Assembly: GCF_015831345.1 (NCBI RefSeq)
Contig: NZ_JADWYS010000001.1
Coordinates: 1,932,118-1,996,117 of the forward strand
DNA length: 64,000 nucleotides
Direction: 5' to 3'
Source of the DNA: Caenimonas aquaedulcis
GTDB taxonomy: Bacteria > Pseudomonadota > Gammaproteobacteria > Burkholderiales > Burkholderiaceae_C
Below are positions 6,369 through 54,394 of this stretch, in pieces. Every line of letters begins with the position of its first letter. The first letter of the stretch is position 1. The notes beneath the pieces were generated by a model, which was not told where the DNA came from, made no database searches, and saw only the letters and a program-made list of their open reading frames with translations. A program made the translations under genes and the position numbers.

Positions 6369-6422
6369 TGTAGGAGTGATCGTTCAGCAGGGCGCACGGC
6401 CCGCGCGCCTGTGGGAGAGTGA

Positions 6423-7220
6423 CTACAGCGCCATGCACTGCGCGATGATCAGGGCCGCTTCCAGCGTGAATTCGTCACGATGCAATCGCGACGCGAGCTC
6501 GTCAGGCGCGAGCAGGCCGAACTGCGCGACTTCGCCGTCCTGGTTCACCGGCACCACGCCCTCGGGCACGACGCAGCGATACCAGTCGATCTGTTCGACG
6601 ACGTAGCCGCCGCGGCCGGAGTCCGTGGGGCAGCGCAGCGTCACGCGGCCGCCACGCGACAACTCGCGAAGCTGCGCGACGCGCAGCCCCGCCTCTTCCC
6701 AGGTCTCGCGCTCGAGCGCGGCCTCGACGGAGTCCGAAGCCGGCACCATGCCACCCATCAGCGTGTCCCACAGCCCCGGGTCGTTGGGCTTGGTGAGCGA
6801 GCGCTGCTGCACCCAATGCCGGCCGTCGGGCGACAGGCCCACGAGGTGCACGGCGCGGGTGGCGATGCCCAGGGGCCGCACCGCTGCGCGCTCCACCGTC
6901 GCGATGATCGCGCCGGAGTCGTCCCGCACGGCCAGCTGCTCGTCGCGCCAGGCATGCGCCGCCCCCGCATCGCGCAGCGCGAGCGCGACCGCGTGGAGGC
7001 TCGCCGTGATGTCGCCAAGCACTTCCCACCCCGCCTCGCCACCCCGCTGCGCGGGCGCGATCCACTCGGGCCGGAGCACGAGGCCGCGCGCCCACTCCGG
7101 CTCGACGGAGCCGATGCGCGTGCCGCCCGCCCACAAGGCGACCCTCGGCACGCGCGGCGGCTCGTCCGCCTGCCGCCGCAAGGCCGCCAGCCAGGCCGCA
7201 TCCAGCAACTCGCCGCTCAC
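6423..7220 (-). CDS. NUDIX hydrolase with DUF4743-type N-terminal domain
   Basis: Predicted to hydrolyse a nucleoside-diphosphate-linked substrate; the exact substrate is unknown. 265 residues. The first ~130 residues look like the DUF4743 domain that precedes NUDIX in thiamine-pyrophosphokinase-related proteins. The Nudix box runs GGMVPASDSVEAALE then RETWEEAG; the first Glu of the consensus is Asp here. The start is GTG 7220, overlapping the upstream quinone reductase stop by four bases (GTGA), so the pair is translationally coupled. Confidence 0.88.
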   Translation of the reverse strand: MSGELLDAAWLAALRRQADEPPRVPRVALWAGGTRIGSVEPEWARGLVLRPEWIAPAQRGGEAGWEVLGDITASLHAVALALRDAGAAHAWRDEQLAVRDDSGAIIATVERAAVRPLGIATRAVHLVGLSPDGRHWVQQRSLTKPNDPGLWDTLMGGMVPASDSVEAALERETWEEAGLRVAQLRELSRGGRVTLRCPTDSGRGGYVVEQIDWYRCVVPEGVVPVNQDGEVAQFGLLAPDELASRLHRDEFTLEAALIIAQCMAL

Positions 7221-8200: not shown

Positions 8201-8314
8201 GGGAATACCTCAGGCAATGAAAGAAAAAAACTCGGGCGAAGGATCGTGCCACGAAATCGCCAGCCTTGCGCAAGGCAGGACACGTTCCGGCCCGATACAG
8301 TGGCGGGTCCGCCC

Positions 8315-9214
8315 ATGACCCAGAAACTCGACCTGCGCTCCGCGCTGCTGCTCACCGTCCCGCCCTTGCTGTGGGCGGGCAACGCCATCGTCGGGCGCAT
8401 GGTCCAGGGCCTCGTGCCGCCGGTCACGCTCAACTTCCTGCGCTGGGGGCTCGCCTTCCTCATCCTGCTGCCGATGGCCGGCTGGGTGCTGCGGCGGGGC
8501 AGTCCCCTGTGGGGCTCGTGGAAGCGATTCGCCCTGCTGGGCCTGCTCGGCGTCGGCTGCTACAACGCGCTGCAGTACCTCGCGCTCAAGACGACGACGC
8601 CGCTCAACGTGACGCTCGTGGCCGGGAGCATCCCGGTGTGGATGCTGGTGATCGGCGCGCTGTTCTTCGACCAGCGCGTCACCGCGCGGCAATGGCTGGG
8701 CGCGGTCCTTTCCATCGCCGGCGTGGTGCTGGTGCTGAGCCGCGGCGACATGGACGTGCTGCGGCACCTTCGACTCGTGCCGGGCGACGTCTACGTGCTC
8801 GTGGCGACGGCGGCCTGGGGCTTCTACAGCTGGCTGCTCGTGCGCCCCGGCGACCCGCCCGAGATACGCGGCGACTGGGCCGCCTTCCTCATGGCGCAGG
8901 TGCTGTACGGGCTGGGCTGGTCGGCCCTGTTCGCGGGCGCCGAACTCGGTTCGGGCAACGCGCATTTCGAGTGGGGCTGGCCCCTCGCCGCGGCGCTCGC
9001 GTACATCGCGATCTTCCCCGCCGTGGTCGCGTACCGTTGCTGGGGCCTGGGCGTGCAGCGCGTGGGGCCGAGCGTCGCCGGCTTCTTCTCGAACCTCGCG
9101 CCGCTGTTCACGGCGCTGTTGTCCACGGCATTCCTGGGCGAGCCGCCGCGCCTCTACCACGCGATCGCGTTCGTGCTGATCGTCGGCGGGATCGTCGTGT
9201 CGTCTCGCCGCTGA
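8315..9214 (+). CDS. EamA/DMT-family transporter
   Basis: Inner-membrane drug/metabolite transporter, 299 residues with about ten membrane spans in two EamA repeats (LLLTVPPLLWAGNAIVGRM begins repeat one; DVYVLVATAAWGFYSWLL begins repeat two). The substrate cannot be read from sequence. The ATG at 8315 gives the short cytoplasmic N-terminus typical of the family. It converges on the SDR gene with three bases between stop codons. Confidence 0.9.
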   Translation: MTQKLDLRSALLLTVPPLLWAGNAIVGRMVQGLVPPVTLNFLRWGLAFLILLPMAGWVLRRGSPLWGSWKRFALLGLLGVGCYNALQYLALKTTTPLNVTLVAGSIPVWMLVIGALFFDQRVTARQWLGAVLSIAGVVLVLSRGDMDVLRHLRLVPGDVYVLVATAAWGFYSWLLVRPGDPPEIRGDWAAFLMAQVLYGLGWSALFAGAELGSGNAHFEWGWPLAAALAYIAIFPAVVAYRCWGLGVQRVGPSVAGFFSNLAPLFTALLSTAFLGEPPRLYHAIAFVLIVGGIVVSSRR

Positions 9215-39631: not shown

Positions 39632-41343
39632 AGATCATTCCCCGCGACATCCCGCCGCGCGCCGCCTGGGCGCTGGAACAGGCGGGTGTCCATCCGCTGC
39701 TCGCGCGGCTCTACGCCGCGCGCGGCGTGCTCGGCAAGGACGAACTCGACGACGGCCTCGCCCGCCTGCTGCCGCCCGCCGGCATGCGGGGCCTCGCGCA
39801 GGCCTCCGTGCTGCTGGCCGATGCCATCGCCGGCGACCGGAAGCTGTGCATCGTCGCGGACTACGACTGCGACGGCGCCACCGCCTGCGCCGTCGCCGTG
39901 CGCGGCCTGCGCCTCCTCGGCGCGAAGCACGTCGACTACCTCGTGCCCGACCGCGTGATCGACGGCTACGGCCTCACGCCGCCGATCGCACGGCGCGTCA
40001 AGCAGCGCGGCGCCGACGTGCTCATCACGGTGGACAACGGCATCGCGAGCGTGGAGGGTGTCGCGACCGCGAACGAGCTGGGCCTGCAGGTGCTGGTGAC
40101 GGACCATCACCTGCCCGGCGCGCAACTGCCGGACGCCGCGGTGATCGTGAACCCGAACCACCCCGAGTGCGGCTTCGAGAGCAAATCCATTGCCGGTGTC
40201 GGCGTGATGTTCTACGTGCTGCTGGCCTTGCGCTCCGAGCTGCGCCAGCGCGGCGTCTTCGATGCGCAGACGCAGCCCAAGCTCGACGCGCTCCTGCCGC
40301 TCGTCGCGCTGGGGACTGTGGCCGACGTCGTCAAGCTCGACGCGAACAATCGCCGCCTCGTCGCGCAGGGCCTCAAGCGCATCCGCGCGGGCGCGATGCC
40401 CTGCGGACTCGCGAGCCTCTTTGCCGCCGCCGCGCGCAAGCATGCGATGGCCACGACCTTCGACTTCGGCTTCGCGCTCGGGCCGCGCATCAATGCGGCG
40501 GGCCGCATGTCCGACATGACGCTCGGCATCGAATGCCTGATGACGGACGACGCCGCGCGCGGCGACGAACTCGCGAAGCAGCTCGACGCGATCAACCGCG
40601 AGCGCCGCGAAGTCGAGGGCGACATGCGCGAACAGGCGATGGAAATCGTCGACACGCTGTTCGACGAAGGCGAGGAACCGCCGCCCGCCATCTGCGTGTT
40701 CGACCCCGACTTCCACGAGGGCGTGGTGGGCATCGTCGCTTCGCGCGTGAAGGACAAGCTGCACCGCCCCACCTTCGTCTTCGCGGCGAGCCAGGCGCCG
40801 GGCAAGGAGCACGAGCTCAAGGGATCGGGCCGCTCGATCCCGGGCTTCCACCTGCGCGACGCGCTCGACCTCGTGGCCAAGCGCCACCCCGGCGTGCTGC
40901 TGCGTTTCGGCGGCCATGCGATGGCTGCGGGCTGCACGGTGCCGGAGGACCAGCTCGACGTCTTCGAGAACGCGCTGACGCAGGTCGCTCACGAATGGCT
41001 GGACGCCGCGACACTCAAGCGTAGCCTCGCCACAGACGGCCCGCTCGCGCCGGAATACCGCCGCGCCGACCTGGTCGACACGCTGCATCATGAAGTGTGG
41101 GGCCAGGGCTTCGCGCCGCCGGTGTTCAGCGAGGAGGTCGAAGTGATTTCACAGCGCCTCGTGGGGGACAAGCACCTGCAGCTGAAGCTGAAGCACCAGG
41201 GCCAGCCGGTGGACGGCATCTGGTTCGGCCGCACGGAACCTTTGCCCGCGCGCGTGACGCTCGCGTTCCGGCTCGATGCGGACGAATGGCAGGGGGTGCG
41301 GCGCGTGCGCTTCCTGGTGGAAGGCGCCGACGAGCAGGCGTGA
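39628..41343 (+). CDS. recJ: Single-stranded-DNA-specific exonuclease RecJ
   Basis: 5'-3' exonuclease in RecF recombination and mismatch repair. 571 residues. DHH-family motifs: ADYDCDGATA starting at about residue 77, TDHHLPG (Asp159, His160, His161), NPNHPEC, and the DHHA1 region with GFHLRDAL and RFGGHAMAAG. ATG 39628 overlaps the upstream stop. The length and motif set are complete. Confidence 0.96.
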   Translation: MKIIPRDIPPRAAWALEQAGVHPLLARLYAARGVLGKDELDDGLARLLPPAGMRGLAQASVLLADAIAGDRKLCIVADYDCDGATACAVAVRGLRLLGAKHVDYLVPDRVIDGYGLTPPIARRVKQRGADVLITVDNGIASVEGVATANELGLQVLVTDHHLPGAQLPDAAVIVNPNHPECGFESKSIAGVGVMFYVLLALRSELRQRGVFDAQTQPKLDALLPLVALGTVADVVKLDANNRRLVAQGLKRIRAGAMPCGLASLFAAAARKHAMATTFDFGFALGPRINAAGRMSDMTLGIECLMTDDAARGDELAKQLDAINRERREVEGDMREQAMEIVDTLFDEGEEPPPAICVFDPDFHEGVVGIVASRVKDKLHRPTFVFAASQAPGKEHELKGSGRSIPGFHLRDALDLVAKRHPGVLLRFGGHAMAAGCTVPEDQLDVFENALTQVAHEWLDAATLKRSLATDGPLAPEYRRADLVDTLHHEVWGQGFAPPVFSEEVEVISQRLVGDKHLQLKLKHQGQPVDGIWFGRTEPLPARVTLAFRLDADEWQGVRRVRFLVEGADEQA

Positions 41344-41344
41344 C

Positions 41345-41665
41345 TCAGGCGTGCAGGCCAGCGGGGACCGGCGCGCGCTCGTCGTCGAAATAGGCGAAGA
41401 GCTTGGCCGCGATGCCGCGCAGCTCGCGGTCCTGCAGGGTGTGCGCGCGTGCCAGCTGCCACATCGCGTACTCGCGGTCGCCCAGCATCATGGAGGTGTT
41501 GATGCAGCGGCCATGCCCTGCCATGAGCAGCGCGAAAGCCGAGAGCAGGGAGGTGGGGCAGTAGCGCATGGAGCCGGTCAGGGCGTCGTACTCGTCCGAG
41601 GCATCGATCGACGTCAGGGTGATTTCGCTCCAGGGCACATTGACGTGGGCGACGGCGTTGTTCAT
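41345..41665 (-). CDS. Hypothetical protein, 106 aa
   Basis: Not recognised. Cytoplasmic, mixed composition, with a possible helix LLSAFALLMAGHGRC. A good ribosome site (CAGGAG) lies 8 bases before the ATG, and its reading direction converges with recJ one base apart, so it is likely a real gene. No signal peptide or membrane span. Confidence 0.6.
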   Translation of the reverse strand: MNNAVAHVNVPWSEITLTSIDASDEYDALTGSMRYCPTSLLSAFALLMAGHGRCINTSMMLGDREYAMWQLARAHTLQDRELRGIAAKLFAYFDDERAPVPAGLHA

Positions 41666-41791
41666 GACGGGGCTCCTGCGGTGGCTGGGGTTTCTCGTTT
41701 CGACCTGGATTGATCCTAGGTCGAGCCCCGCGTCGGCGCGGTCGGCGAGGGCAGGTTCCGTCTGTCGGACGCCTGCCGCCGCCGCGCGTAG

Positions 41792-42034
41792 TCAATCGCG
41801 ATGGGCCCTGTCGGCGCAGGTGTAGAAGGTCGAGCGCGGCATGGCGCGCTGGCAGTCGGCCATGGCGACACGCTGCACCGGGGCGGCCGCGTCACGCGTC
41901 TGGGCCCTGGCCACCTGCTGGCTGCACAGCATCCAGAACGCGACGAGCTGGCCGATGGCCAGCAGACCGAGGGCGGCCCACATCAGCATGTCTCGGGGCG
42001 TGGCGGCGCGGGTGCGGGCGGAAGAGGTGGGCAT
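41792..42034 (-). CDS. Small membrane-anchored hypothetical protein, 80 aa
   Basis: One strong membrane span (MLMWAALGLLAIGQLVAFWM) with a short basic cytoplasmic N-terminus; the C-terminal ~45 residues hold two further cysteines (ADCQRAM, FYTCADR) that could form a disulfide in the periplasm. A CAGGAA site precedes the ATG. Function unknown. Confidence 0.6.
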   Translation of the reverse strand: MPTSSARTRAATPRDMLMWAALGLLAIGQLVAFWMLCSQQVARAQTRDAAAPVQRVAMADCQRAMPRSTFYTCADRAHRD

Positions 42035-42155
42035 GTCGGGTTCCTGCGGAAGTTGCAGCGATGTTAGGAAGCCCCTTGCACGGCCGAGTCAGGCCGCAGC
42101 CGCGTGAGGCTGTAGGACGGGAGCGCGGCGCGGCGGGAGCCGCCACAATCGCGGC

Positions 42156-43073
42156 ATGCAGAACCTGCTCGACGCGGCCATGACGGCGGCCCGGCTCCCC
42201 TATCCCGCCCTGGCCGAGGAGATTCGCCGGCTGCTGGCGGATGCGTCGGTGCAGGTGCCCGAACGGCTCGTGCAGCCCCTCGCCGGAGGCGGCAGCCTGT
42301 TCGTCATGCCCGCCTGCGACAGCCGCATCGCGATCGCCAAGCTCATCACGTTCACGCCCGCTAACGCGGGCAGCGGCCGCGCCGCCATCCAGGGCGACGT
42401 CGCCGTGTTCGACGTGGCGACGGGCGCGCGCATCGGCCTGCTCGACGGTCCCACCGTCACCGCGCGCCGGACCGCCGCGGTGTCGCTGCTGGCGGCGCAG
42501 CATCTCGCACCCAGCGCGGCCGGGCCGCTGCTGGTGGTCGGCGCCGGCGCGCAGGGGCGTGCGCACGTGGAAGCCTTTGCACAGGGGCTCGGCGTGCGCG
42601 AGGTCGCGATCGCGTCCCGCAGCGCCGCCAGCGCGCAGGCGCTCTCCGCCCATGCACGGACGCTCGGCCTTGCGGCCCGTGTCGTGGAGGACCCTCACGC
42701 GGCGCTCGCGGACTGCCCGCTGGTAGTGACCTGCACACCCGCGAACGCAGTCGTGCTGCGTGCCAGGCCACGCGATGACGCCTTCATCGCGGCCGTCGGC
42801 GCCTTCACGCCCGCCATGGTCGAGCTGGACGCCGGCATGTGCCGGGACATGGCGCAACGGGGACGCGTGGTCGTCGATACGCGCGATGCTCAACACGAAG
42901 CCGGTGACCTGATCCAGGCCGGCCTGGACGTGTCCTCGTTCCCCACACTGGGCGAGGTCCTGCGCGATGCGGCGCCGGCCGGGCGCGGACCCGTGCTGTT
43001 CAAGAGCTGCGGCTGGGCCGGCTGGGACCTGGCCGCCGCCCGCCTGGCGGTCAGGCAAGGGGAAGCGGGATGA
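42156..43073 (+). CDS. Ornithine cyclodeaminase / mu-crystallin family, probable delta1-pyrroline-2-carboxylate reductase
   Basis: 305 residues. The NAD(P)-binding motif VVGAGAQGRAHVEAF and the AIAKLITFTPANA and GLLDGPTVTARRTAAVSLLA segments are typical of the family. The sequence fits the branch acting as Pyr2C reductase in hydroxyproline and D-amino-acid pathways, but ornithine cyclodeaminase cannot be excluded. No amino-acid genes are adjacent. Confidence 0.85.
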   Translation: MQNLLDAAMTAARLPYPALAEEIRRLLADASVQVPERLVQPLAGGGSLFVMPACDSRIAIAKLITFTPANAGSGRAAIQGDVAVFDVATGARIGLLDGPTVTARRTAAVSLLAAQHLAPSAAGPLLVVGAGAQGRAHVEAFAQGLGVREVAIASRSAASAQALSAHARTLGLAARVVEDPHAALADCPLVVTCTPANAVVLRARPRDDAFIAAVGAFTPAMVELDAGMCRDMAQRGRVVVDTRDAQHEAGDLIQAGLDVSSFPTLGEVLRDAAPAGRGPVLFKSCGWAGWDLAAARLAVRQGEAG

Positions 43074-43115
43074 AGATTCGCGGCCCGGCGATCCGGATCG
43101 CCGCGTCGCAGCGGC

Positions 43116-43682
<567 letters not shown>

Positions 43683-43726
43683 GAAGTTCTCTCCTGCCGG
43701 GAATTGTAGGGGCGGGGCCCCGCCCC

Positions 43727-45004
43727 TCAACCGGCGATCACCGCGCGTTCGATCGCCCGGTCGTCCCCGAGCACGATCAGGGAGAAGAGCAGCTCGTCGA
43801 GGTTGGCCGCCTGCGCTGTCTTGCGCGCGAGCAGCGGCGTGGCCTTCGGGTCGATCACGATGAAGTCCGCTTCGCAGCCCGGCTGCAGGTTGCCCACGAC
43901 GCCGTCGAGGCCCAGCGCCTGCGCCGCGCCCGCCGTGTGCTGCCACCAGAGGTTCTGCGGCGACAGCGACACGCCGGGCTTGGTCTGGCCTTCGCGCCCC
44001 ACGTAGTACGCCGCCAGCATCGTGTGGAAGGGACTGAAGCTCGTGCCGCCGCCGACGTCGCTCGCGAGGCCATGCTTGAAGCCGATGCGCCGGGCGCCTT
44101 CGTAGTCGAAGAAGCCGCTGCCGAGGAACAGGTTGCTCGTGGGGCTCACCGCCGCCGCCGCACCGGTGGAGCGCATCAGCGCGCGGTCTTCGTCGTCGAA
44201 ATGGATGCAATGCGCGTAGATGGCACGCTCGCGCATCAGCCCGAAATCGTCGTAGATCGACAGGTAGCTGCGCGAGGCGGGAAAGAGCTCGCGCGCCCAT
44301 GCGATCTCGTCGAGGTTCTCCGCGACGTGCGACTGGATCCACACGTCCGGATACCTGGCCGCGAGCTCGCCCGCGCCGCGCAGCTGCGCTTCGGTGCAGC
44401 TGGGCGCGAAGCGTGGGGTGATCGCATAGCCCAGCCGGCCGTTGCCGTGCCAGCGCTGGATCAGCGCTTCGGTGTCGACGAGCGATTGCTCCGTCTGGTC
44501 GCGCACGCCGTCGGGCGAGTGCCGGTCCTGCAGCACCTTGCCCGCGATCATCCGCATGCCGCGCCCCTGTGCCTCGGTCATGAGCGCATTGACCGACGAC
44601 GGATGCGATGTCGCGAACGTGAGCGCACTCGTCACGCCGTGGCGCAGCAATTCGTCGACGAAGAAGGTCGCGAGTTCGCCCGCATAGGCCTCGTCCGAGA
44701 ATTTGGATTCGTGGGGAAAGGTGTAGTTCTCGAGCCAGGGCAGCAGCCCCGGGGCCGGCGAACCGATCACGTCCAGTTGCGGGAAGTGGATATGCAGGTC
44801 GATGAAGCCGGGGGCGATGATGCGGCACGGGAGGTGTTCGACGGCGACGCCGGGGAAGTTGCCCGCCAGCGCCTGGTAGCTGCCCGCCGCCCGGACGACG
44901 CGCCGCCCCTGCGCATCCGGGCCGACCACCAGCAGGCCGTCCTCGTCGAAGACCGCCGAAGCATCGTCGGCGAAACGGAGAAGGGAGGCTCGAAAGGCGC
45001 GCAT
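43727..45004 (-). CDS. guaD: Guanine deaminase
   Basis: Converts guanine to xanthine. 425 residues from ATG 45004; a TTG at 45019 would overlap the upstream gene and add five residues. Zinc ligands: [10 protein letters not shown] (His-x-His), a His in [11 protein letters not shown], a His in YAHCIHF, and the Asp in [11 protein letters not shown]. Directly follows the BMP binding-protein gene, so purine capture and deamination are co-expressed. Its product is the substrate of the xanthine dehydrogenase at 61.7 kb. Confidence 0.95.
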
Positions 45005-45008
45005 CGCC

Positions 45009-46082
45009 CTATTTTGCAATTTTCCCCTGCACGCCCGACACGAGGTAGTTCATGGAGAGGATCTGTTCGTCCGTCAGGGCCTGACCGCGCGCGAGCACTT
45101 CATGGCCTTCGTTGTCCACGATCGGCCCCACGAAGGGTCGCAGCTTGCCCGATGCGATGTCCTGCTGGCGCGCGAGCACTTCGCCCTGCACCGACTTCGG
45201 CACCTTCGGGCCGAAGTCGCCGACGCGGATCATCCCTTCCTTCACGCCGCCCCACACGTTGCCGCTCTTCCAGGACCCGTCGAGCACCGCCTGCGTGCGG
45301 CGCTTGTAGTAGTCACCCCATTGGTGCGTGACGGCGACGATCTGCGCGTCCGGGCCGGCCTTGCGCATGTCCGAGTGGTAGGCCACGGCCATCTTGCCGC
45401 GCTCCTGCGCCGCCGTCATCACGGCGGTGGAACCGGTGTGGAACGCGATCACGTCGACGTCCTGGTTGAAGAGCGTCATCGCCGCCTCCCGCTCGCGCGG
45501 CGGGTCGAACCAGGCGTTGAGCCACACGACCTTGACCTGTGCCTTCGGGTCCACCGAGCGCATGCCCAGCGTGAAGGCGTTGATGCCTTGCAGCACTTCG
45601 GGAATCGGGAAGCCGGCCACGTAACCCGCGACGTGCGACTTCGACATGCGCCCCGCCGCGATCCCCGCGAGGTAGCGGCCTTCGTAATAGCGGGCGTTCG
45701 CTGTTGCCACGTTGGGCGCCGTCTTGTAGCCGGTGATGGATTCGAACTTCACATCCGGAAATTCCTTCGCCACCTTCATGGTGGGCTCCATGTAGCCGAA
45801 GCTCGGCGTGAAGATGAGCTTGTGGCCCGTCGCCGCGAGATCGCGAATCACGCGCTCGGCGTCGGGGCCTTCGGGCACGTTCTCCACGAAGTCCGCCTTG
45901 ACCTTGTCTCCGTAGGCCGACTGCACGGCCTGCCGCGCGTCCTCGTGCTGGCGCACCCAGCCGGCCTCGGTGACCGGCGCGACATAGACGAAGCCGATCT
46001 TCAGCGGCTCGGCCGCGGCGGCATGAAAGGCGGGAATCGAAAAACAGGCGGCCGCGAGCGCAGCAGCGAGGTTTTTGTACAT
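45009..46082 (-). CDS. BMP-family solute-binding protein (orphan, purine/nucleoside type)
   Basis: 357 residues with a cleavable Sec signal (NLAAALAAACFSIPAFHAAA) and no lipobox Cys at the cleavage site. Body typical of BMP/PnrA purine-nucleoside receptors: KIGFVYVAPVTEAGW, FTPSFGYMEPTM, GYVAGFPIPEVLQGINAF. No permease or ATPase genes adjoin it. A second BMP receptor with its transporter is at 56.9-61.6 kb, so this one may feed that importer. It stands between ada and guaD. Confidence 0.9.
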   Translation of the reverse strand: MYKNLAAALAAACFSIPAFHAAAAEPLKIGFVYVAPVTEAGWVRQHEDARQAVQSAYGDKVKADFVENVPEGPDAERVIRDLAATGHKLIFTPSFGYMEPTMKVAKEFPDVKFESITGYKTAPNVATANARYYEGRYLAGIAAGRMSKSHVAGYVAGFPIPEVLQGINAFTLGMRSVDPKAQVKVVWLNAWFDPPREREAAMTLFNQDVDVIAFHTGSTAVMTAAQERGKMAVAYHSDMRKAGPDAQIVAVTHQWGDYYKRRTQAVLDGSWKSGNVWGGVKEGMIRVGDFGPKVPKSVQGEVLARQQDIASGKLRPFVGPIVDNEGHEVLARGQALTDEQILSMNYLVSGVQGKIAK

Positions 46083-46197
46083 GGTGGTCCTCTACATGGC
46101 CCCGAAAATGAAATTGCCGCTGCGGGGCGCAACGGCGACGATGATTTTACCCAGTCGCGTTGGTCGATGGCTGGGAAGCTCGGTGTAGTCACGCGCT

Positions 46198-46428
46198 GGG
46201 TCGCGTCAGGCAGTGCCCGGTGGGGCTCATACTGCGGCGGTTTTGCTTCGCAAAACTTCCCTGGGATTTCCGGGCTGGGGGCGGGGCCGCAAAAACTCGC
46301 TTCGCTAACGCTCTCGCTCAAACACTTGCGGCCAGTCAGTTCACGAAGCGCGCAAGCGCGCCCGCCCCCAGCCCGGAAATCCCAGGCGCCGCAGAAATCG
46401 CCCCACCGGGCACCGCCTGCCGCGACCC
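46198..46428. repeat. Structured palindromic element E1
   Basis: 231 bases, with no coding signal. From outside in: an outer helix (46198-46239 with 46386-46428) with a few mismatches; a hairpin GTTTTGC-TTC-GCAAAAC (46240-46256) on one side only; a perfect 26-bp stem (46260-46285 with 46361-46386); and a 75-base loop that starts CCGCAAAAACTCGC. It forms one arm of a head-to-head pair with E2 at 46475. With 46083-46197 this fills the gap between the ada and BMP genes; the 115 bases next to the BMP start hold no signal I can support. Confidence 0.85.
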
Positions 46429-46482
46429 GGAGAGTGGTACTCGGATGTTCAAACCCGCAGGCACGCCACTCCTCGGGTCGCG
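46421..46482. repeat. Junction hairpin between E1 and E2
   Basis: CGCGACCCGGAGAGTGG (46421-46437) pairs with CCACTCCTCGGGTCGCG (46466-46482), 15 of 17 positions, around a 28-base loop. It includes the last bases of E1 and the first of E2, so the two elements can fold either each on itself or across the junction. Confidence 0.65.
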
Positions 46483-46709
46483 TCAGGCGGTAGGCGGCAG
46501 GGGCGATTTCTGTGGTGGCTGCTTTCGCTGCTCCGGCGGCGGAGCGCGCTTGCGCGCCTTGTGAACTGACTCACCGCAAGTGTTTGAGCGAGAGCGTCAG
46601 CGAAGCGAGTTTTTGCGGTGCCGCCGCCGGAGCAGCGAAAGCAGCGGAGTTTTTGCGAAGCAAAAACCGCCACAGTATGAGCCCCTGCCGCATACCGCCT
46701 GACGCGACC
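46475..46709. repeat. Structured palindromic element E2, inverted relative to E1
   Basis: 235 bases. Outer helix (46475-46517 with 46667-46709), a hairpin GTTTTTGC-GAA-GCAAAAAC (46649-46667) on one side, a perfect 25-bp stem (46518-46542 with 46621-46645), and a 78-base loop that is a near-identical reverse complement of the E1 loop. Its inner stem sequence differs from that of E1 although both are perfectly paired. It begins 15 bases after the ada stop codon. Confidence 0.85.
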
Positions 46710-46724
46710 AGCGCGCTCTACAAA

Positions 46725-47765
46725 TCACTCAAAGGACGCAAACACCTCGTCGAGTTGCGCACGCCACTTCTTCTTCATCGCCTCATCCACGAAGCTCGCC
46801 TCGAAGCTGTTCGCGGCCAGCTGGTAGGCGTGCCTCGCATCCATGCCGGTCGCCGCGAAGGTCTGCAGGAAGTTGTCGTTCATGTAGCCGCCGAAGTACG
46901 CCGGGTCATCCGAGTTCACCGTCGCAACGATGCCCGCGTCGAGCAGCTGCTTCAGGTTGTGGTCTTCCAGTTTCGGGAACACGCACAGCTTCAGGTTGGA
47001 CAACGGGCACACCGTGAGCGGAATGCGGTCCTTTGCCAGCCGCTTCATCAGCGCGGGATCCTTCACCGACTGCACGCCGTGGTCGATGCGCTCCACGTGC
47101 AGGGTGTCCAGCGCCGTCCAGACGTACGCGGGCGGGCCCTCTTCGCCCGCATGCGCGACGAGGTGCAGGCCGAGTTCGCGGCAGCGCTCGAACACGCCCG
47201 CGAACTTCTCGGGGGGATGGCCCACCTCGCTCGAATCGAGGCCCACGCCGATGAACTTGTCCCGGAAGGGCATGGCCTCCTCCAGCGTCGCGAAGGCCTC
47301 GGCCTCGCTCAGGTGGCGCAGGAAGCACAGGATGAGCGAACCGTCCACGCCGAGCCGCGCACGCGCGTCTTCGCAGGCGCGATGCAGGCCGTCGATCACC
47401 GTGCGCATCGCGACACCCCGCGCCGTGTGCGTCTGCGGATCGAAGAACAGTTCCGCGTGCACCACGTGGTCCGCGGCGGCGCGCTCGAAGTACGCCCACG
47501 CCATGTCGTAGAAGTCCTGCTCCTTGAGCAGCACACTCGCCCCGGCGTAGTAGATGTCCAGGAAGCTTTGCAGGTTGGTGAAGGCATAGGCGCGCCGCAA
47601 CGCCTCGACGCCCGGGTACGCAAGCTTCACGCCGTTGCGCTGCGCGAGCTCGAAGATCAGCTCGGGCTCGAGCGAGCCCTCGATGTGGATGTGCAGTTCG
47701 GCCTTCGGCATGCGGCGCAGCAGCTCGGGCAGGCGTGCGGGGGAAATGTCGGGGTGTTGGTTCAT
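46725..47765 (-). CDS. add: Adenosine deaminase
   Basis: Converts adenosine to inosine, or adenine to hypoxanthine in the closely related adenine-deaminase branch. 346 residues. Zinc and catalytic residues: [32 protein letters not shown] and [12 protein letters not shown]. The start context places ATG 47765 at the expected N-terminus. Its message runs into the E2/E1 elements and then toward the BMP receptor gene. Confidence 0.93.
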
Positions 47766-48014
47766 GGAGTCGGCGACGCAGAAAAATACACATGCAGGAT
47801 ATCGCGCCGACGCAGTCGCAACAGCTCGTTACCAAATAGTCCTGCTCATCCAGCCGGCCCCTCAGGTTGCTCCCATTGACGGCATGAAGCCTGCATGACC
47901 GAATGGGCCCGGCGCGCGCATTACCAGTGCCCGCGCCGAGCGGATCCAAGTATCAACCGAAACTTTCGGCGCGCCTACGAGGCACGCCGATCGACTGCCC
48001 AAGGAGGGTAAGCA

Positions 48015-51000
48015 GTGAAAATCCTATCCAGGACATGGATGCCGGCGTGCGCGTCGGCGGTGGCTGCGGCGATGCTCGCGGCCTGCGGTGGCGGCGCTGA
48101 TACGGCCTCCACCAATTCCTCGGCCCAGGCCCCGCTGGCGGCGGCCCAGGCCCCCGCCCCGCTTCGAGCGCAGCCCTCCCCCTCCGGCGAGGTCACCAGC
48201 ACACCGGTCGACACCGACCGCGGCAGCCGGGTCGGGCAGGCGCGCAAGAACAACGTGTACATCGTGCAGCTGGACGAAAAGCCGGTCACCGCGTACGACG
48301 GAAGCATCAAGGGCCTGCAGGCGACCAAGCCGAAGAAGGGCCAGAAGATCGACCCGAACTCGCCGGCCGTCGTCAACTACATGGCGCACCTCGCGTCCAA
48401 GCACGACGCCGCGATCCAGGGCGTCGGCGGCGCCAAGAAGCTCTATAGCTACGGCTATGTCTACAACGGCTTCGCGGCCGAACTCACGGACGCGCAGGTC
48501 GCCAAGCTCTCGCAGGCCAAGGGCGTGCTCGCGGTGAGCAAGGACGAAGTGCGCAGCATGGACACCTCGTCCACGCCCAACTTCCTGGGCCTCGCGGGCT
48601 CGGGCGGTTTCTGGAACACGACCGGCGCCAAGGGCGAAGGCGTGATCATCGGCATGGTCGATTCGGGCATCTGGCCCGAGTCCCTCAGCTTCACCGACCG
48701 CACCGGCACGAACGGCAATGCGTCCAAGGACGGCAAGCTGGACTACCAGCAGATCCCCGGCTGGAACGGCAAGTGCACGCCCGGCGACCAGTTCTCCGGC
48801 ACGGATTGCAACCAGAAGCTGATCGGCGCGCGTTACTACAACGCGGGCTGGGGCGGCAATGCAGGCGTCGCCGCGGCCTTCCCCTTCGAGTACAACTCGC
48901 CGCGCGACTGGGGCGGCCACGGCACGCACACGGCCAGCACGGCGGGCGGCAACAGCGGCGTGCCGGTCACCGGCCCCGCGGCGCCCTTCGGCACGATCAG
49001 CGGCATGGCGCCGCGCGCGCGCATCGCGGCGTACAAGGTCTGCTGGGCGGTCGAGCCGGAAGGCGGCTGCTTCTCGTCGGACAGCGTCGCGGCCATCGAC
49101 CAGGCGGTCGCGGACGGCGTGGACGTGATCAACTTCTCCATCAGCGGCTCGACGACGAACTTCCGCGACCCCGTGGAAATCGCCTTCCTGTTCGCGGCGG
49201 ACGCGGGCGTCTTCGTCGCGGCCTCCGCCGGCAACAGCGGCCCCACGGCCAGCACCGTGGCGCACCCCGGCCCGTGGCTCACCACGGTGGCGGCAGGCAC
49301 GCACAACCGCACGGCGGTGGGCTCGGTCACGCTCGGCAACGGCACGACCTACAACGGCATCTCGCTGGCGGCCACCGCCGCGGGTCCGGCCGGGTTCATC
49401 GACGCCAGCGCCGCAGCACTCCCGGGCGCGAGCACGGCCTCCGCGGGCCTGTGCTTCTCGGCGTCCTGGAACGGCGGCACCCCCGTGCTCGACCCGGCCA
49501 AGGTCTCCGGCAAGGTCGTCCTGTGCGACCGCGGCACCAACGACCGCGTGAACAAGAGCCTCGCGGTGAAGGAAGCCGGCGGCATCGGCATGGTGCTGGT
49601 CAACGTCGCACCGGGCTCGTCGCTGAACGCCGACTACCACTCGGTGCCCACCGTGCACGTCGACGACACGGCGCGTCCGTCGCTCAAGGCCTATGCCGCC
49701 ACGACGGGCGCCACGGCGACCGTCGCGAAGGGCACCTTCGACTTCAGCGCGCCGGCGCCGTTCACCGCCTCGTTCTCCTCGCGCGGCCCCTTGCTCGCCG
49801 GCGGCGGCAGCCTGCTCAAGCCCGACCTGATCGCGCCGGGCAACGACATCCTCGCGGCGGTCGCGCCCCCGGGCAACTCGGGCCGCAGCTTCGACCTGTA
49901 CAGCGGCACCTCGATGTCCAGCCCGCACGTGGCCGGCCTCGCGGCGCTGTTCAAGCAGCTGAAGCCCACGTGGTCCCCGATGGCGATCAAGTCCGCGCTG
50001 ATGACGACCGGCACCGACGTGCTCGACGGCCCCAACACCAACCCGCTGGTGATCTTCCGCCAGGGCGCGGGCCACGTGAAGCCGATCGCGGCGACGGACC
50101 CCGGCCTGGTGTTCGATTCGGGCTACGCGGACTGGCTGGGCTTCCTGTGCGGCACGCAGCTGCCGGCCTCGTTCTGCACTTCGTCGGGCATCCCGGTGCT
50201 GAACCCGAGCGACATGAACGTCGCGTCGATCGCGCTGGGCGCCCTGCCGGGCGTGCAGACCGTGACGCGCCGCGTGACGAACGTGAGCAACACCACTGCC
50301 ACTTACAACGCCAGCCTCACCGGCATGGCGGGCTTCACGGTGGCCGTGAACCCCGCGACCTTCACGATCGCGCCCGGCCAGACGAAGTCGTTCACCACGA
50401 CCTTCACCCGCACCACGGCGGCGCCGCTGCTCACGTACGCGGGCGGGCAGCTCACGCTCTCCGACGGCACGCACAACGTGCGCATCCCGATCGTCGCGCG
50501 GCCGGTGGCCATGGGCGCGCCGACCGAGGCGAGCGGTTCGTACAACGTGACCTTCGGCTACGACGGCGCATTCACCGCGACGGCGCGCGGGCTCGTGCCG
50601 GCGGCCAAGCAGCCGGGCTCGGTCGCGACGAACGGCGCGGTGGACTTCACCGTGACGCTGCCAGCGGGCATGACGCACGTCCGCTTCTCGACCTTCGACA
50701 GCGACGTGAGCCAGGCGAGCGACCTCGACATGGAGGTGTACTACGGCGGCAACCTCGTGGGCTCCAGCGGCGGCGCCACGGCGCAGGAAGAAGTGAGCTT
50801 CCGCAACCCGCCGGCGGGCACGTACACCGTGCGCGTGATCGGGTTCGCGGTGCCCTCGGGCGCGGCCAACTTCAACCTGTACAGCTGGCAACTGGGTGCC
50901 GCGGCCACGGGCAACATGACGGTGACCGCGCCGTCGACGGCGACCACCGGCCAGGCCGGCACCATCAACATCGCGACCAGCGGCTTGACCCCGGGCACGA

Positions 51001-51074
51001 AGTACATGGGCTCGGTGGCCTACAGCGGCACGAGCAACCTGCCCAACCCGACGATCATCCGCGTCGATCCGTGA
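48015..51074 (+). CDS. Subtilisin-like (S8) lipoprotein protease, cucumisin type
   Basis: 1019 residues, GTG start with AAGGAGGG upstream. A lipobox (AAMLAAC) puts it in the outer membrane or periplasm. An I9 inhibitor pro-domain (VYIVQLDEKPVTAYDG to about residue 185) precedes the catalytic domain with Asp216 (GMVDSGIWPES), His302 (GGHGTHTAS) and Ser633 (SGTSMSSPHVAGL). A PA domain (KVVLCDRGTNDRVNKS) is inserted in the catalytic domain. The C-terminus has a fibronectin-III-like region and a PPC-like module (DSDVSQASDLDMEVYYGG). The architecture is like plant cucumisins, which is unusual but known in proteobacteria. Confidence 0.92.
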   Translation: MKILSRTWMPACASAVAAAMLAACGGGADTASTNSSAQAPLAAAQAPAPLRAQPSPSGEVTSTPVDTDRGSRVGQARKNNVYIVQLDEKPVTAYDGSIKGLQATKPKKGQKIDPNSPAVVNYMAHLASKHDAAIQGVGGAKKLYSYGYVYNGFAAELTDAQVAKLSQAKGVLAVSKDEVRSMDTSSTPNFLGLAGSGGFWNTTGAKGEGVIIGMVDSGIWPESLSFTDRTGTNGNASKDGKLDYQQIPGWNGKCTPGDQFSGTDCNQKLIGARYYNAGWGGNAGVAAAFPFEYNSPRDWGGHGTHTASTAGGNSGVPVTGPAAPFGTISGMAPRARIAAYKVCWAVEPEGGCFSSDSVAAIDQAVADGVDVINFSISGSTTNFRDPVEIAFLFAADAGVFVAASAGNSGPTASTVAHPGPWLTTVAAGTHNRTAVGSVTLGNGTTYNGISLAATAAGPAGFIDASAAALPGASTASAGLCFSASWNGGTPVLDPAKVSGKVVLCDRGTNDRVNKSLAVKEAGGIGMVLVNVAPGSSLNADYHSVPTVHVDDTARPSLKAYAATTGATATVAKGTFDFSAPAPFTASFSSRGPLLAGGGSLLKPDLIAPGNDILAAVAPPGNSGRSFDLYSGTSMSSPHVAGLAALFKQLKPTWSPMAIKSALMTTGTDVLDGPNTNPLVIFRQGAGHVKPIAATDPGLVFDSGYADWLGFLCGTQLPASFCTSSGIPVLNPSDMNVASIALGALPGVQTVTRRVTNVSNTTATYNASLTGMAGFTVAVNPATFTIAPGQTKSFTTTFTRTTAAPLLTYAGGQLTLSDGTHNVRIPIVARPVAMGAPTEASGSYNVTFGYDGAFTATARGLVPAAKQPGSVATNGAVDFTVTLPAGMTHVRFSTFDSDVSQASDLDMEVYYGGNLVGSSGGATAQEEVSFRNPPAGTYTVRVIGFAVPSGAANFNLYSWQLGAAATGNMTVTAPSTATTGQAGTINIATSGLTPGTKYMGSVAYSGTSNLPNPTIIRVDP

Positions 51075-51108
51075 TGAGGTGAGCGATGGCCGCTCGCGCG
51101 GCCTGAAT

Positions 51109-51140
51109 AAAAAAAGCCCGGCCATGCCGGGCTTTTTTTT
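51109..51140 (+). terminator. Intrinsic terminator after the protease gene
   Basis: A-run, GCCCGGC-CAT-GCCGGGC stem, then eight T. It starts 35 bases after the protease stop and lies just before the convergent exporter gene end at 51148, so it can serve both. Confidence 0.92.
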
Positions 51141-51147
51141 CTTCGCC

Positions 51148-51720
51148 TCAAAAGCCCCACTTCGACCCCGCGCCGAACGCCGTCGCCACGCCCAGCGCAA
51201 GGAAAAGCAGCGCCGCCACGATCCGCACCAGCCGCAACGGGATGCGATGCGCCGCCCGGTCCCCCAGCAGCACGGCCGGCACGTCGGCGATCAACATCCC
51301 CAGCGTCGTGCCCGCCACGACTTCGAACAGCGAGTTGTACTTCGCCGCGAGCGCGATGGTCGCGAGCTGCGTCTTGTCGCCGACTTCGGCCAGGAAGAAG
51401 GCGACGAGCGTCGTGCCGAAGGCGCCGAAGGCCGCGAACTTCGCGTCGTCCTCCAGCTTGTCGGGAATCAGCGTCCAGGCCGCCATGGCGACGAAGGACG
51501 CGGCCAGGATCAGGCGCAGGGTCTGCGGCTCGACCAGCGAGGTCAGCCAGGCGCCCAGCGCCCCGGCCAGGCCGTGGTTGACCACGGTGGCGGCCAGGAT
51601 GCCCAGGATGATGGGGATGGGTTTGCGGAACTTGGTGGCCAGGAGAAAGGCCAGCAGCTGGGTCTTGTCGCCGATTTCCGCGACCGCGACGATGCCGGTC
51701 GATACGAGGAATGCTTCCAT
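51148..51720 (-). CDS. TMEM165/GDT1-family (UPF0016) manganese exporter
   Basis: 190 residues, six membrane spans in two repeats. Each repeat carries the E-x-G-D-K-T/S motif: AEIGDKTQLLAF and AEVGDKTQLATI. Family members move Mn2+ or Ca2+ out of the cytosol. The upstream region carries a manganese riboswitch, which makes a manganese export role very likely. ATG 51720 gives a short N-terminus. Confidence 0.93.
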   Translation of the reverse strand: MEAFLVSTGIVAVAEIGDKTQLLAFLLATKFRKPIPIILGILAATVVNHGLAGALGAWLTSLVEPQTLRLILAASFVAMAAWTLIPDKLEDDAKFAAFGAFGTTLVAFFLAEVGDKTQLATIALAAKYNSLFEVVAGTTLGMLIADVPAVLLGDRAAHRIPLRLVRIVAALLFLALGVATAFGAGSKWGF

Positions 51721-51753
51721 GAATGCTCCAGGCCGGGATGAACGAAGTCCAAT

Positions 51754-51895
51754 GACTACGCGCCTCCCGGCCGAGGGGTGGCGGCGTAGTCAAAGGTCTT
51801 GCCAGGCTGGATGCTGCTTGCACCATGGCCGCGAGGGCCAAGTGTGTTGATGCAAGCTCCTTCGGGGCGGAAGGACGGCTACTCCCCAATGACCG
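51754..51895 (-). promoter_or_regulatory. yybP-ykoY manganese riboswitch
   Basis: Read on the minus strand it shows the conserved aptamer parts in order: GGGGAGTAGCC (51887-51877), TCAACACACTT (51850-51840) and GGCAAGACC (51803-51795). An expression-platform hairpin follows in which GACTACG (51791-51785) pairs with CGTAGTC (51760-51754), and about 33 bases then lead to the start codon. Mn2+ binding should switch on the TMEM165-type exporter gene at 51720, as this class does for MntP and other Mn exporters. The exact boundaries are estimated. Confidence 0.9.
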
Positions 51896-51939
51896 CACGA
51901 TTCTAGCCGGGGGCGTTCACCCGCGCCCGCCGGGGGGCT

Positions 51940-52317
51940 TCAGTCGCGGCGGCCGTCGCGGTGGTGGCGTTCCCAGCCGCCGCCATGGTGGTGGGTGCGT
52001 GCCCATTCGCGGCGCTGCCATTCGGCACGGCGCCAGGCGCGCTCCTCATACGTGGTGCGGAAGTAGATCGGCGCGGGGCCGAGGTAGATCGGCTCGGACT
52101 CGACGTACACCGGGCGCTGTTCGTAGTACGGCCGGGGTTGCACGTAGACCGGGCGGGGCTGCACGTACACGGGCGCGGGCTCCACGTACACCGGCGCGCC
52201 TTGCAGGCCGATGGAGAAGAAGACGTCGCTGCGGGCATGCGCCGCGGAGGCGGCACCGAGGCCCGCGACCGCCAGGGCGGCGCCTGCGAGCAATTTGGCG
52301 GAGAGAGAGGCTTTCAT
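51940..52317 (-). CDS. Exported PXPV-repeat protein
   Basis: 125 residues. Signal peptide SAKLLAGAALAVAGLGAASA, then repeats APVYVEPAPVYVQPRPVYVQ and a His/Arg-rich tail (HHHGGGWERHHRDGRRD). PXPV proteins are short secreted envelope proteins of unknown role; the His-rich tail could bind metal. Its promoter region carries the same 34-base motif as the two-component operon at 55.2 kb. Confidence 0.78.
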   Translation of the reverse strand: MKASLSAKLLAGAALAVAGLGAASAAHARSDVFFSIGLQGAPVYVEPAPVYVQPRPVYVQPRPYYEQRPVYVESEPIYLGPAPIYFRTTYEERAWRRAEWQRREWARTHHHGGGWERHHRDGRRD

Positions 52318-52343
52318 GTGGACTCCTTGGTTGGGATGGGTCC

Positions 52344-52377
52344 ATCATCTGCCTGCCTGCATGAACGCTGACTGAAC
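52344..52377 (-). promoter_or_regulatory. Response-regulator box upstream of the PXPV gene (box 1)
   Basis: On the minus strand: GTTCAG-N5-GTTCAT (an 11-base direct repeat), then GCAGGCA and GATGAT ten bases after TTCATG. This is the layout of OmpR-family sites overlapping a promoter -35 region, with GATGAT as the -10. It starts 26 bases before the start codon and matches box 2 at 55210 in sequence and spacing. Confidence 0.7.
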
Positions 52378-52398
52378 GGATCGCAGAAATCCGTTCAG
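52372..52398. repeat. Hairpin built from GTTCAG boxes at the histidine kinase stop codon
   Basis: CTGAACGGAT (52372-52381) and ATCCGTTCAG (52389-52398) form a perfect 10-bp inverted repeat with a 7-base loop. It overlaps both the kinase stop codon and the first GTTCAG of box 1. It could be an operator dyad, a weak terminator, or both. Confidence 0.6.
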
Positions 52399-53726
52399 GC
52401 TGCGGGAAGCGCGATGCGCACGCGCCCCCCGCCCCATTCCGAGCGCTCCAGCTTCAGTTCCCCCTCGTGGCTGGCCACCAGGTCGTTCACCACCGCCAGG
52501 CCCACCCCGTGCCCGGGCACCTGCTCGTCGGCGCGCACATGCAGCTGCAGGATGGCCTGCGTGTCGCCGAAGCCCTTGCCGTCGTCGTCGATCTCCAGCA
52601 CGAGGCGCCTGCGCTCGGTCCACGCTTTCACGCGCACCCGGTGCACGGCCCACTTGGCCGCGTTGTCCATGACGTTGCCGAGCATCTCGAAGGCATCGCC
52701 CTCGTCGATGCGCCAGCTGAGGCCGGCCGGGCAGTCGATGGCGAAGTCCAGCGACTTGTCCGCGTAGACCTTCTGCAGGGAGTCCCGGATGCGATGCAGC
52801 ACCGGCGCGATCGCAAGGTGCGGCGCGAAACGCGCCAATCCGCTGGCCGCCGCGCGGCCGAGCTGGTGCTGCACGATGTCGTCCATGCGCGCCACCTGCT
52901 GCGTCACCGCGGCCGGCAGCTCCGCGGGCTCGTGCAGCGCGCCGCGCAGCACGGCCAGGGGCGTCTTCAGGCTGTGCGCGAGAAAACTCAGCGCCTCCTT
53001 GTAGCGCGTCTGGCGCACGCGCTCCTGCTTGATGAGCGTGTTGAGGTTGCCGGTGAGCGCGGCGATCTCGGCGGGATAGCGCCCTTCGACCTCGGACTGC
53101 TCGCCCTGTTCGATGCGCCGCACTTCGCGCGCCACGCGGCGCAGCGGCGACAGGCCCCATTCGAGCAGCAGCGTCTGCGAGAGCAGCAGCAAGAGCGAAG
53201 CCCCCGCGAGCCAGGTCCACATGGTGCGTTCGAAGACAGCGATCTCGCGGTTGAATTCCGACTTGTCCTCCAGCACCGAGAGCACCAGCGGCACGGGCTG
53301 CGTCTTGCCCGCCCAGCTCACGCCGTAGCTCGCGGCGAGGTAGGTGCGGCCCTGCGTGGTGCGCGTGTCGTAACGCCATTGCCCGACGGGCACGTCGCGC
53401 TGGAAGGGAGGCTCCGCGCCCACGGTGGAAGGCGACTGCCACTCCTCGCGCTTCGCGACGTTGACGACATTGGCATACAGCCCGGAGGCGGGCAGCGACA
53501 GGCGCGGCTCGGGAAAGGACGGCGGCATGACGAGCGCGCCCGCGTCGTCGATCTCCGCGCCGGCGAGCAGCAGGTACACCGTGCTTTGCAGCTGCGCGAA
53601 GCGCTGGGTGAGCACGCTGTCCTGGTGCGCGCGCTGCACCGCCCAGCCCGCGCCCGCGACGAAAGTGACCAGCACCACGGCGGCGCCCAGGATCAGGCGC
53701 GCGCGGATGGAGTCCTGGACCTTCAT
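52395..53726 (-). CDS. Sensor histidine kinase, PhoQ/QseC-like
   Basis: 443 residues. Two spans (LGAAVVLVTFVAGAGWAVQR and LAGASLLLLLSQTLLLEWGL) bracket a periplasmic sensor of about 140 residues. The DHp box is LAHSLKTPLAVLRGAL with His251, and the ATPase domain has the N box and DDDGKGFGD, GHGVGLAVVNDLVA motifs. Its start overlaps the response-regulator stop by four bases, making the two a coupled pair. Confidence 0.92.
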   Translation of the reverse strand: MKVQDSIRARLILGAAVVLVTFVAGAGWAVQRAHQDSVLTQRFAQLQSTVYLLLAGAEIDDAGALVMPPSFPEPRLSLPASGLYANVVNVAKREEWQSPSTVGAEPPFQRDVPVGQWRYDTRTTQGRTYLAASYGVSWAGKTQPVPLVLSVLEDKSEFNREIAVFERTMWTWLAGASLLLLLSQTLLLEWGLSPLRRVAREVRRIEQGEQSEVEGRYPAEIAALTGNLNTLIKQERVRQTRYKEALSFLAHSLKTPLAVLRGALHEPAELPAAVTQQVARMDDIVQHQLGRAAASGLARFAPHLAIAPVLHRIRDSLQKVYADKSLDFAIDCPAGLSWRIDEGDAFEMLGNVMDNAAKWAVHRVRVKAWTERRRLVLEIDDDGKGFGDTQAILQLHVRADEQVPGHGVGLAVVNDLVASHEGELKLERSEWGGGRVRIALPAA

Positions 53727-54394
53727 TGGAGCGTGAGGCGGTACCCCCGGCCGCGCAGGGTTTCGATGGGCGCGAGCGTGCCGTCCGCGTCGAGCTTGCG
53801 GCGCAGGCGGCCGATCAGCACCTCCAGCACGTTGCTGTCGCGGTCCTCGTCGTGCGGGTACAGGTAATCGGCGAGCTCCTGCTTGGTCACCACGCGCGCG
53901 CGCTCGCGCACCAGGAATTCGAGCACGCGGTATTCGAAGGCGGTGAGGTCCAGCGGCTCGCCGTGGAGCTTCGCGGACTGCGCGGAGAAGTCGATGGCGA
54001 GCGGCCCGAGCGTGAGCACGTCGGAGGTGGCCTTGAGCGAGCGGCGCAAGAGCGCCTTCACGCGGGCGGCGAGCTCCGGGTATTCGAAAGGCTTGACGAG
54101 GTAGTCGTCGGCGCCCGCCTCCAGCCCCGTCACCTTGTCCTGCCAGCTGCCGCGCGCGGTGAGGATCAGGATGGGGAGGGTGCGGCCGTCGGCGCGCAGC
54201 TGCTCCACCACGGAAAGGCCGCTCCGCTTGGGCAGACCAAGGTCGACGATGGCGAGGTCGACGGGATATTCGCGCGCCTGGAAGAGGCCGTCTTCCCCGT
54301 CATTCGCCTGGTCGACGCGGTAGCCGTCCGCTTCGAGCTGGCGAGCCAGCGTGAGCCGCAGCGGCGCCTCGTCCTCGATCAGCAGCAGGCGCAT
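53723..54394 (-). CDS. OmpR-family response regulator
   Basis: 223 residues. Receiver with Asp51 (LAIVDLGLP) and winged-helix output ending LRGRGYRLTLQ; PhoP/QseB-like. It is preceded by the PepSY gene (4 bases) and glycine-zipper gene in one operon, and followed by the kinase. The repeated GTTCA boxes in front of its operon and in front of the PXPV gene are probable targets. Confidence 0.93.
   Translation of the reverse strand: MRLLLIEDEAPLRLTLARQLEADGYRVDQANDGEDGLFQAREYPVDLAIVDLGLPKRSGLSVVEQLRADGRTLPILILTARGSWQDKVTGLEAGADDYLVKPFEYPELAARVKALLRRSLKATSDVLTLGPLAIDFSAQSAKLHGEPLDLTAFEYRVLEFLVRERARVVTKQELADYLYPHDEDRDSNVLEVLIGRLRRKLDADGTLAPIETLRGRGYRLTLQ

Follow-up and report, generated by a model that had tools for sequence, protein, structure and literature searches.

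The window, by which the whole analysed stretch of 64,000 nucleotides of Caenimonas aquaedulcis DNA is meant, contains a unit of ~520 bp that consists of two hairpins of ~235 nt, whose 5' ends face each other across a spacer of ~50 nt and whose 3' ends are directed outwards. Copies of the unit are dispersed over its own genome and related ones, its fold is kept by changes on both sides of the stems, and the mispairs in these stems single out one strand. With somewhat better than even confidence we regard the pair as a copy of a mobile unit that is MITE-like and non-autonomous, its ends being the ~235-nt hairpins folded as single strands.

Architecture of the hairpin pair

The preliminary description, which was made from the letters of the window, had reported two mutually inverted elements with perfect inner stems, long loops and small one-sided hairpins, and all of these features were found again in the sequence (Table 1). 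The two loops, called there near-identical reverse complements, match at 93% over 75 bases. The inner stems and the outer helices differ in sequence between the left hairpin (E1) and the right one (E2) and yet pair in both, the outer helices with a few G-T pairs and mismatches. In the repeat search E1 was returned with 31-nt arms (46260-46290 and 46356-46386, 94%), inside which the perfect 26-bp stem lies. Folded as RNA, E1 (plus strand) reaches -169.2 kcal/mol (z -15.6) and E2 (minus strand) -162.5 kcal/mol (z -15.2); in either case none of 200 shuffled sequences was as good.

Table 1. Features of the hairpin unit in the window and intervals enclosed by divergent hairpin pairs at four other loci (last four rows, positions of the respective locus).
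Feature	Position	Strand	Basis or remark
E1, left hairpin	46199-46429	- (conserved fold read on this strand; 5' end at spacer, 3' end outward)	sequence, repeat search, RNA folding, model R1
E2, right hairpin	46476-46709	+ (conserved fold read on this strand)	sequence, repeat search, RNA folding, model R1
Spacer between E1 and E2	46430-46475		52 nt between R1 matches
E1 inner stem, outer-side arm	46260-46285		pairs with 46361-46386, 26 bp
E1 inner stem, spacer-side arm	46361-46386		pairs with 46260-46285
E1 loop, 75 nt	46286-46360	-	conserved unpaired motifs and two small stems
E2 inner stem, spacer-side arm	46518-46542		pairs with 46621-46645, 25 bp, 100%
E2 inner stem, outer-side arm	46621-46645		pairs with 46518-46542
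E2 loop, 78 nt	46543-46620	+	sequence, repeat search
E1 one-sided hairpin	46240-46256		read from sequence
E2 one-sided hairpin	46649-46667		read from sequence
Flanking gene, 357-aa ORF	45009-46082	-	ORF list; adjoins the 346-aa ORF gene in relatives; taken to be a BMP-type substrate-binding protein
Flanking gene, 346-aa ORF	46725-47765	-	ORF list; unit starts 16 bp past its stop codon; taken to be of adenosine deaminase type
L096 bracketed interval	6385-8448		MAPEG protein, HicA toxin, small upstream ORF, another small ORF
L097 bracketed interval	6369-8089		261-aa ORF without Pfam match
L291 bracketed interval	2331-3715		helix-turn-helix protein (matches below cut-offs) and 114-aa ORF without Pfam match
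L301 bracketed interval	1846-3896		LysR regulator and 191-aa ORF

The covariance model R1 was built from other copies of the hairpin, 2 of its 40 rows being other copies from the same genome. It recognizes E2 at 46478-46708 with 206 bits on the plus strand against 74.8 bits on the minus strand, and E1 at 46200-46425 with 196.4 bits on the minus strand against 73.5 bits on the plus strand; unlike the mismatch counts given below, this preference is not independent evidence, R1 having been trained on the predicted strand.

The same geometry is found outside the window. At all 14 chosen loci, taken from several genera, R1 finds both hairpins with their 5' ends facing, at a distance of 44-55 nt in 13 cases and of 76 nt in the one with a partial match. 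The right hairpins of these loci, none of which was in the training alignment of R1, score 102-173 bits on the predicted strand. In several species the outer helix of the right hairpin is quite different, yet the hairpin matches R1, and some right hairpins have cleanly lost their inner part. In more distant genomes 5'-to-5' pairs are present at 6 of 20 loci (gaps of ~40-200 nt), and another search gave several more; most of the other loci show a single hairpin, and the row for L288 is an overlapping one that does not fit. A partner could not be recognised for all hairpins: a set of 163 full-length matches, which includes repeats of one place, yielded 68 distinct partner hairpins at a distance of up to 330 bp.

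Three loci of strain 2FH (L121, L127 and L139) carry an extra terminal repeat outside the hairpins. It was set aside, being present at 3 of 302 loci, all from 2FH, and having only weak plasmid matches. Two of these copies have direct repeats outside the extra repeat (11 bp at L127 and 13 bp at L121), and the two kinds of repeat together may be a clue to the mobilising enzyme. Other short palindromic repeats, seen by eye, adjoin several units (flanks of L096, L097, L180, L182 and L183; Ramlibacter sp. WS9).

Comparison with Rfam release 15 (window positions 40000-54000 and seven further loci) gave no match to the hairpins at the gathering threshold. A looser search of eight loci returned weak matches on the hairpins (miRNA models, isrG), which were discarded as far below the gathering scores. 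Elsewhere in the window a manganese (yybP-ykoY) riboswitch is present at 51722-51899 on the minus strand (102.1 bits), and L042 has a TPP riboswitch at 2001-2095 (+) with 51.7 bits, just below the gathering score of 54.3.

Conservation of the fold and strand bias

The profile comprised 104 full-length hairpins, namely the left ones and those right ones that are of full length. From these, 44 representatives were picked at <85% similarity and 40 entered the alignment A1, those left out (L057:1905-2168, L048:1391-1625, L196:4157-4387 and L058:838-1102) being among the five lowest-scoring. In this alignment of non-redundant hairpins, 59 of the 74 consensus pairs show two-sided changes. Of all cells, 96.6% pair (81.5% after shuffling). 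The covariation score of 0.426 compares with 0.135 in shuffled alignments, none of 500 reaching it, and with no more than 0.065 in slid ones. The loop has conserved unpaired motifs, and the mismatched internal loops as well as the one-sided hairpin are kept across genera. The proposal of the preliminary description that the fold and not the sequence is kept is thus strongly supported by covariation, pairing and the one-strand bias described below. According to that description, a lack of other copies, or copies with one stem sequence and random mismatches, would make the covariation a matter of chance or of template-switch correction; other copies were found, and both sides of their stems vary.

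On the strand that has its 5' end at the spacer, the transition-type mispairs of the 40 hairpins comprise 104 G-T and 13 A-C cells. The ratio is 34 to 7 when counted by column pair (p = 2.5e-5), 35 to 1 when counted by sequence (of 40), and 81 to 13 when one mostly U-G column pair is omitted; the count with all 44 representatives (109 to 16) is in agreement. The 11 hairpins of the own genome, which are related copies and hence not independent, have 37 G-T and 2 A-C. Right hairpins, read on their own corresponding strand, have 280 G-T and 124 A-C, of which 191 and 93 belong to the 44 of 68 that are not full-length matches. Of the 104 hairpins, 99 fold at lower energy on the predicted strand and 5 on the opposite one.

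Such a bias implies that a folded single strand, either RNA or single-stranded DNA, is the conserved form. Strand-specific deamination could add to the excess of G-T; it would likewise single out that strand. G-T pairs are tolerated in DNA too, and therefore the mispair test does not separate the two kinds of molecule. In our judgement RNA is somewhat the more probable of them, since unpaired internal loops, too, are conserved in the fold.

The bias bears as well on two explanations that need no folded single strand. It is possible in principle that quasi-palindromes are corrected by template switching, so that perfect stems come from repair and not from selection on the fold. This alternative was named in the preliminary description, and it agrees with the perfect stems that differ between copies and with the loss of the inner parts of some hairpins, such as replication slippage on palindromes gives. 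It predicts, however, no strand bias and equal numbers of G-T and A-C, against the 104 to 13 found on one strand and the 37 to 2 of the own genome, and it does not account for mismatched internal loops and a one-sided hairpin kept across genera. Template switching is for these reasons very improbable.

The other explanation is a protein-bound double-stranded cruciform in which both strands are equal. The long near-perfect palindromes would suit it, but equal G-T and A-C would be expected of it instead of an excess on one strand, and nearly all hairpins fold at lower energy on the predicted strand, which likewise disagrees with it; a cruciform alone is hardly credible. Among the three options considered at the outset (structured RNA, cruciform and hairpin-type mobile element), the last, acting as a folded single strand, fits best. 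Beyond this case, the many copies make the count of G-T against A-C a simple and reusable test of selection on a fold against palindrome repair.

Copies and distribution

The own genome contains five complete pairs with 87-100% identity to the copy in the window, all five divergent and with the same order and strands of the hairpins. In a further pair the right hairpin is truncated, and additional copies run into contig ends. In a first sample similar DNA was present in 12 of 25 genus genomes but missing from all 16 genomes that belong to other genera. A second search, whose query was more central, found it in 27 of 60 genus genomes and gave nothing in the other 33 at E up to 1e-5. Within the family, similar DNA is present in at least 130 of 399 genomes and at least 56 of 141 genera, these counts being lower bounds with two candidates scored per genome. 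Ramlibacter, Caenimonas soli and other Comamonadaceae are among the named relatives that have it.

Matches of R1 extend beyond the family. They occur in at least 12 of 369 class genomes, nine of them outside the family (three with 4-6 matches each, the others with one weak match each), and the search of the order gave at least 16 of 300 genomes, of which 10 do not belong to the family. Both searches were run with stricter filters and give lower bounds; several single matches in the class are weak (38-48 bits) and the E-values of R1 are rough. Copies group by genome, because those of the own genome align at 87% or more and those of other genus genomes at ~65-85% over long stretches.

No match to the unit was found in the plasmid and phage collections. 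A phage origin was also considered and dropped, since the profile did not match at any of the three places in viral contigs that a short pattern had picked out. The same holds for the idea that contig C2 is itself a transposon: the assembly breaks at copies of the unit, and C2 bears ordinary-looking genes, presumably chromosomal. In the likely order of contigs C2 sits between L016 and L020 (end and start of contig C1 of the own genome), and the outer flanks of these two copies share a 15-nt inverted sequence.

Insertion sites and gene context

The genes on either side of the own unit are no more than 2.5 kb apart at 10 other genus loci, where R1 detects no hairpin between them. Their gaps are 55-149 bp at eight loci, 271 bp at one and 1228 bp, including a coding-looking stretch, at one, compared with 632 bp in the own genome. 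The comparison drew on the loci of 30 of the 60 genomes and kept those with a distance of up to 2.5 kb, the own locus and these 10; in other genomes the genes stand further apart. Inspection by eye puts the upstream gene's stop codon on one side of the own unit and a terminator-like hairpin on the other, and no target-site duplication was found at this locus. In genome G010 a hairpin stands beside the same gene and on the same side as in the own genome, which may be either shared or independent.

Units favour the 3' ends of genes. Of 73 units, 30 lie between convergent, 38 between tandem and 5 between divergent genes, whereas 564 adjacent ORF pairs taken as background divide into 104, 345 and 115. 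Direct repeats of 12 bp or longer surround 4 of 94 units, against 0.55 expected; one of the four is GC-rich and probably due to chance, and the repeats are mostly at chance level. Both tests were made on units with enough flank and callable ORFs, the ORFs being called by a script.

Dispersed copies, presence and absence of the unit between the same genes across genus loci, the divergent geometry, strong covariation and the one-strand bias in both hairpins are what the reading as a mobile unit is built on. The lack of matches in the plasmid and phage collections is unusual for a transposon and is a point against this reading, as are the missing target-site duplication at the own locus and the negative search for a transposase or recombinase in the bracketed intervals and beside 132 loci; because of the first, and because no movement within a species was seen, we place our confidence in the mobile unit only a little above even. 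Each hairpin would function in single-stranded form, running from a 5' end beside the spacer to a 3' end on the outside. Both ends would be bound as folded strands by a protein acting in trans, which would move what stands between them, usually the ~50-nt spacer and rarely genes. Copies would then be retained mainly next to gene 3' ends, which tolerate insertion.

The main rival of the mobile unit is selection for a pair of structured RNAs that diverge from each other, or for 3'-UTR elements acting in stability or termination, with spread being secondary (duplication, conversion between copies). The bias of G-T towards one strand together with covariation, the preference for gene 3' ends and the conserved unpaired motifs are all in line with it. 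Against it, the unit is evidently not required, being absent in 33 of the 60 genus genomes (E up to 1e-5), and a spacer of ~50 nt would be short for two promoters. We consider this explanation rather unlikely, albeit the most serious of the alternatives.

Enclosed genes and search for a partner enzyme

At four loci (L096, L097, L291 and L301; Table 1) a divergent pair of hairpins encloses other genes. The small ORF upstream of HicA in L096 is HicB-like by position, its sole Pfam match being below cut-off, and the two genes of L291 resemble what we take to be a toxin-antitoxin pair. The genes enclosed in L301 may be host genes between two separate copies. Inspection by eye shows attC-like motifs in the interior of L096 and an inner repeat common to L096 and L097. 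It can be proposed tentatively, as a possibility that we hold to be less than probable, that the unit belongs to a new class of mobile elements with mirrored, 3'-outward ends of ~235 nt made of RNA or single-stranded DNA, which are moved by a putative structure-recognising enzyme and can bracket genes such as toxin-antitoxin pairs.

No transposase or recombinase was seen in the bracketed intervals. Among 366 script-called ORFs beside 132 loci, some of which are one place, the largest cluster of recurring neighbour proteins spans 5 loci; such clusters look by eye like ordinary genes and were rejected as partners. A non-exhaustive search for a parent transposon with the same ends gave none beside the 132 loci or among the bracketed genes.

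A distant RAYT-like transposase had been suspected in the preliminary description, and the unit could accordingly be a giant element of REP/REPIN type moved by a resident RAYT (Y1 tyrosine transposase). The unit is indeed an inverted pair of strand-specific hairpins, mostly intergenic, and PF01797 proteins are present in all 16 genus genomes tested. They are present there with or without detected units, though, including six genomes (G002, G006, G007, G008, G011 and G014) in which neither DNA search found the unit. The hairpin profile at E up to 10 had no match at 30 loci that each comprised ~1.5 kb to the left and to the right of a Y1_Tnp gene. The hairpins moreover measure ~235 nt instead of 20-40, and the RAYT-like gene of the own genome appears by eye to have other ends. 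The suspicion was therefore not borne out, and a RAYT as partner is quite improbable. That gene, L068 (C1:3509436-3509765), is a single-copy Y1_Tnp gene whose own short inverted ends are unrelated to the hairpins.

Two further candidates were dismissed on the basis of protein families. The hairpins as RNA of a retron or group II intron are opposed by the own genome having no RVT_1 match, and as guide RNA of TnpB type by its having no PF07282 match (PF07282 is present in 4 of 60 genus genomes). In L239 a group II intron (RF00029, 51.4 bits; domain V at 3302-3372) immediately follows, from ~1487 on, a hairpin with an interrupted second arm, and the reverse transcriptase in G024:C109 goes with this intron.

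Comparison with known systems

The fold is complex and strongly covarying, occurs in at least 56 of the 141 genera sampled in one family and also in other families, and has no entry in Rfam. Were it an RNA, a protein partner in environmental Betaproteobacteria would be predicted from its conserved loops; as single-stranded DNA it would be an unusually elaborate transposition end. In the literature searches no description of the paired covarying unit was found, the Betaproteobacterial repeat element (BRE) being nearest; a search with sequence fragments, covering 20 of 987 papers, is weak evidence of absence. Part of the unit may nevertheless already be in print, given the BRE, which is set apart here by description only, and a MITE of Polaromonas JS666.

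The likeness to MITEs consists in the size of ~520 bp, dispersal in many copies, the absence of protein-coding genes as judged by the ORF list alone, and terminal inverted repeats, these being the two mutually inverted hairpins. Correia/NEMIS, ERIC and other MITEs are not known to have a conserved ~235-nt fold that covaries on one strand at each end; the present unit has such a fold, and no parent transposon was found for it beside the 132 loci or among the bracketed genes. Integron attC sites are likewise folded single strands recognised by shape. They are shorter than the ~235-nt hairpins and stand in direct arrays, whereas a divergent pair is present here; the genes bracketed in L096 belong to types that also occur in gene cassettes.

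These MITEs share with the unit a small, dispersed, non-autonomous and gene-free nature and the ability to form hairpins in transcripts (PMC10969869). The same review cites the MITE of Polaromonas JS666 (Mattes 2008), which resembles the unit in being a small dispersed element of a Comamonadaceae genome.

The BRE, according to the accessible portion of its description (PMC3110155), is a repeated, mostly intergenic chromosomal element of ~75-91 bp that was discovered via a transcribed sRNA region. There are 29 copies in Polaromonas JS666 and 13 in Delftia acidovorans, and it occurs also in Bordetella, where copies stand in tandem with few or no bases between them (VNTR). It shares with the present unit some of the same groups (Comamonadaceae), and its length is about that of the conserved loop. 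By comparison of descriptions only, the two differ in arrangement, since the hairpins here are inverted and 44-55 nt apart at 13 of 14 loci and BREs are tandem; that portion of the text describes no paired hairpins, covariation or divergent unit.

REPs, as characterised in PMC3733652, are 20-40 bp long with stems of 5-13 bp and form intergenic inverted (head-head) dimers of hairpins, some of them 20-100 bp apart. The ~235-nt hairpins with internal loops, none of which was found near a RAYT gene, lie outside this group in size and in linkage to RAYT. The unit shares the inverted pairing of intergenic hairpins with REPs, BIMEs and REPINs; it would work somewhat like a REPIN and looks like a MITE.
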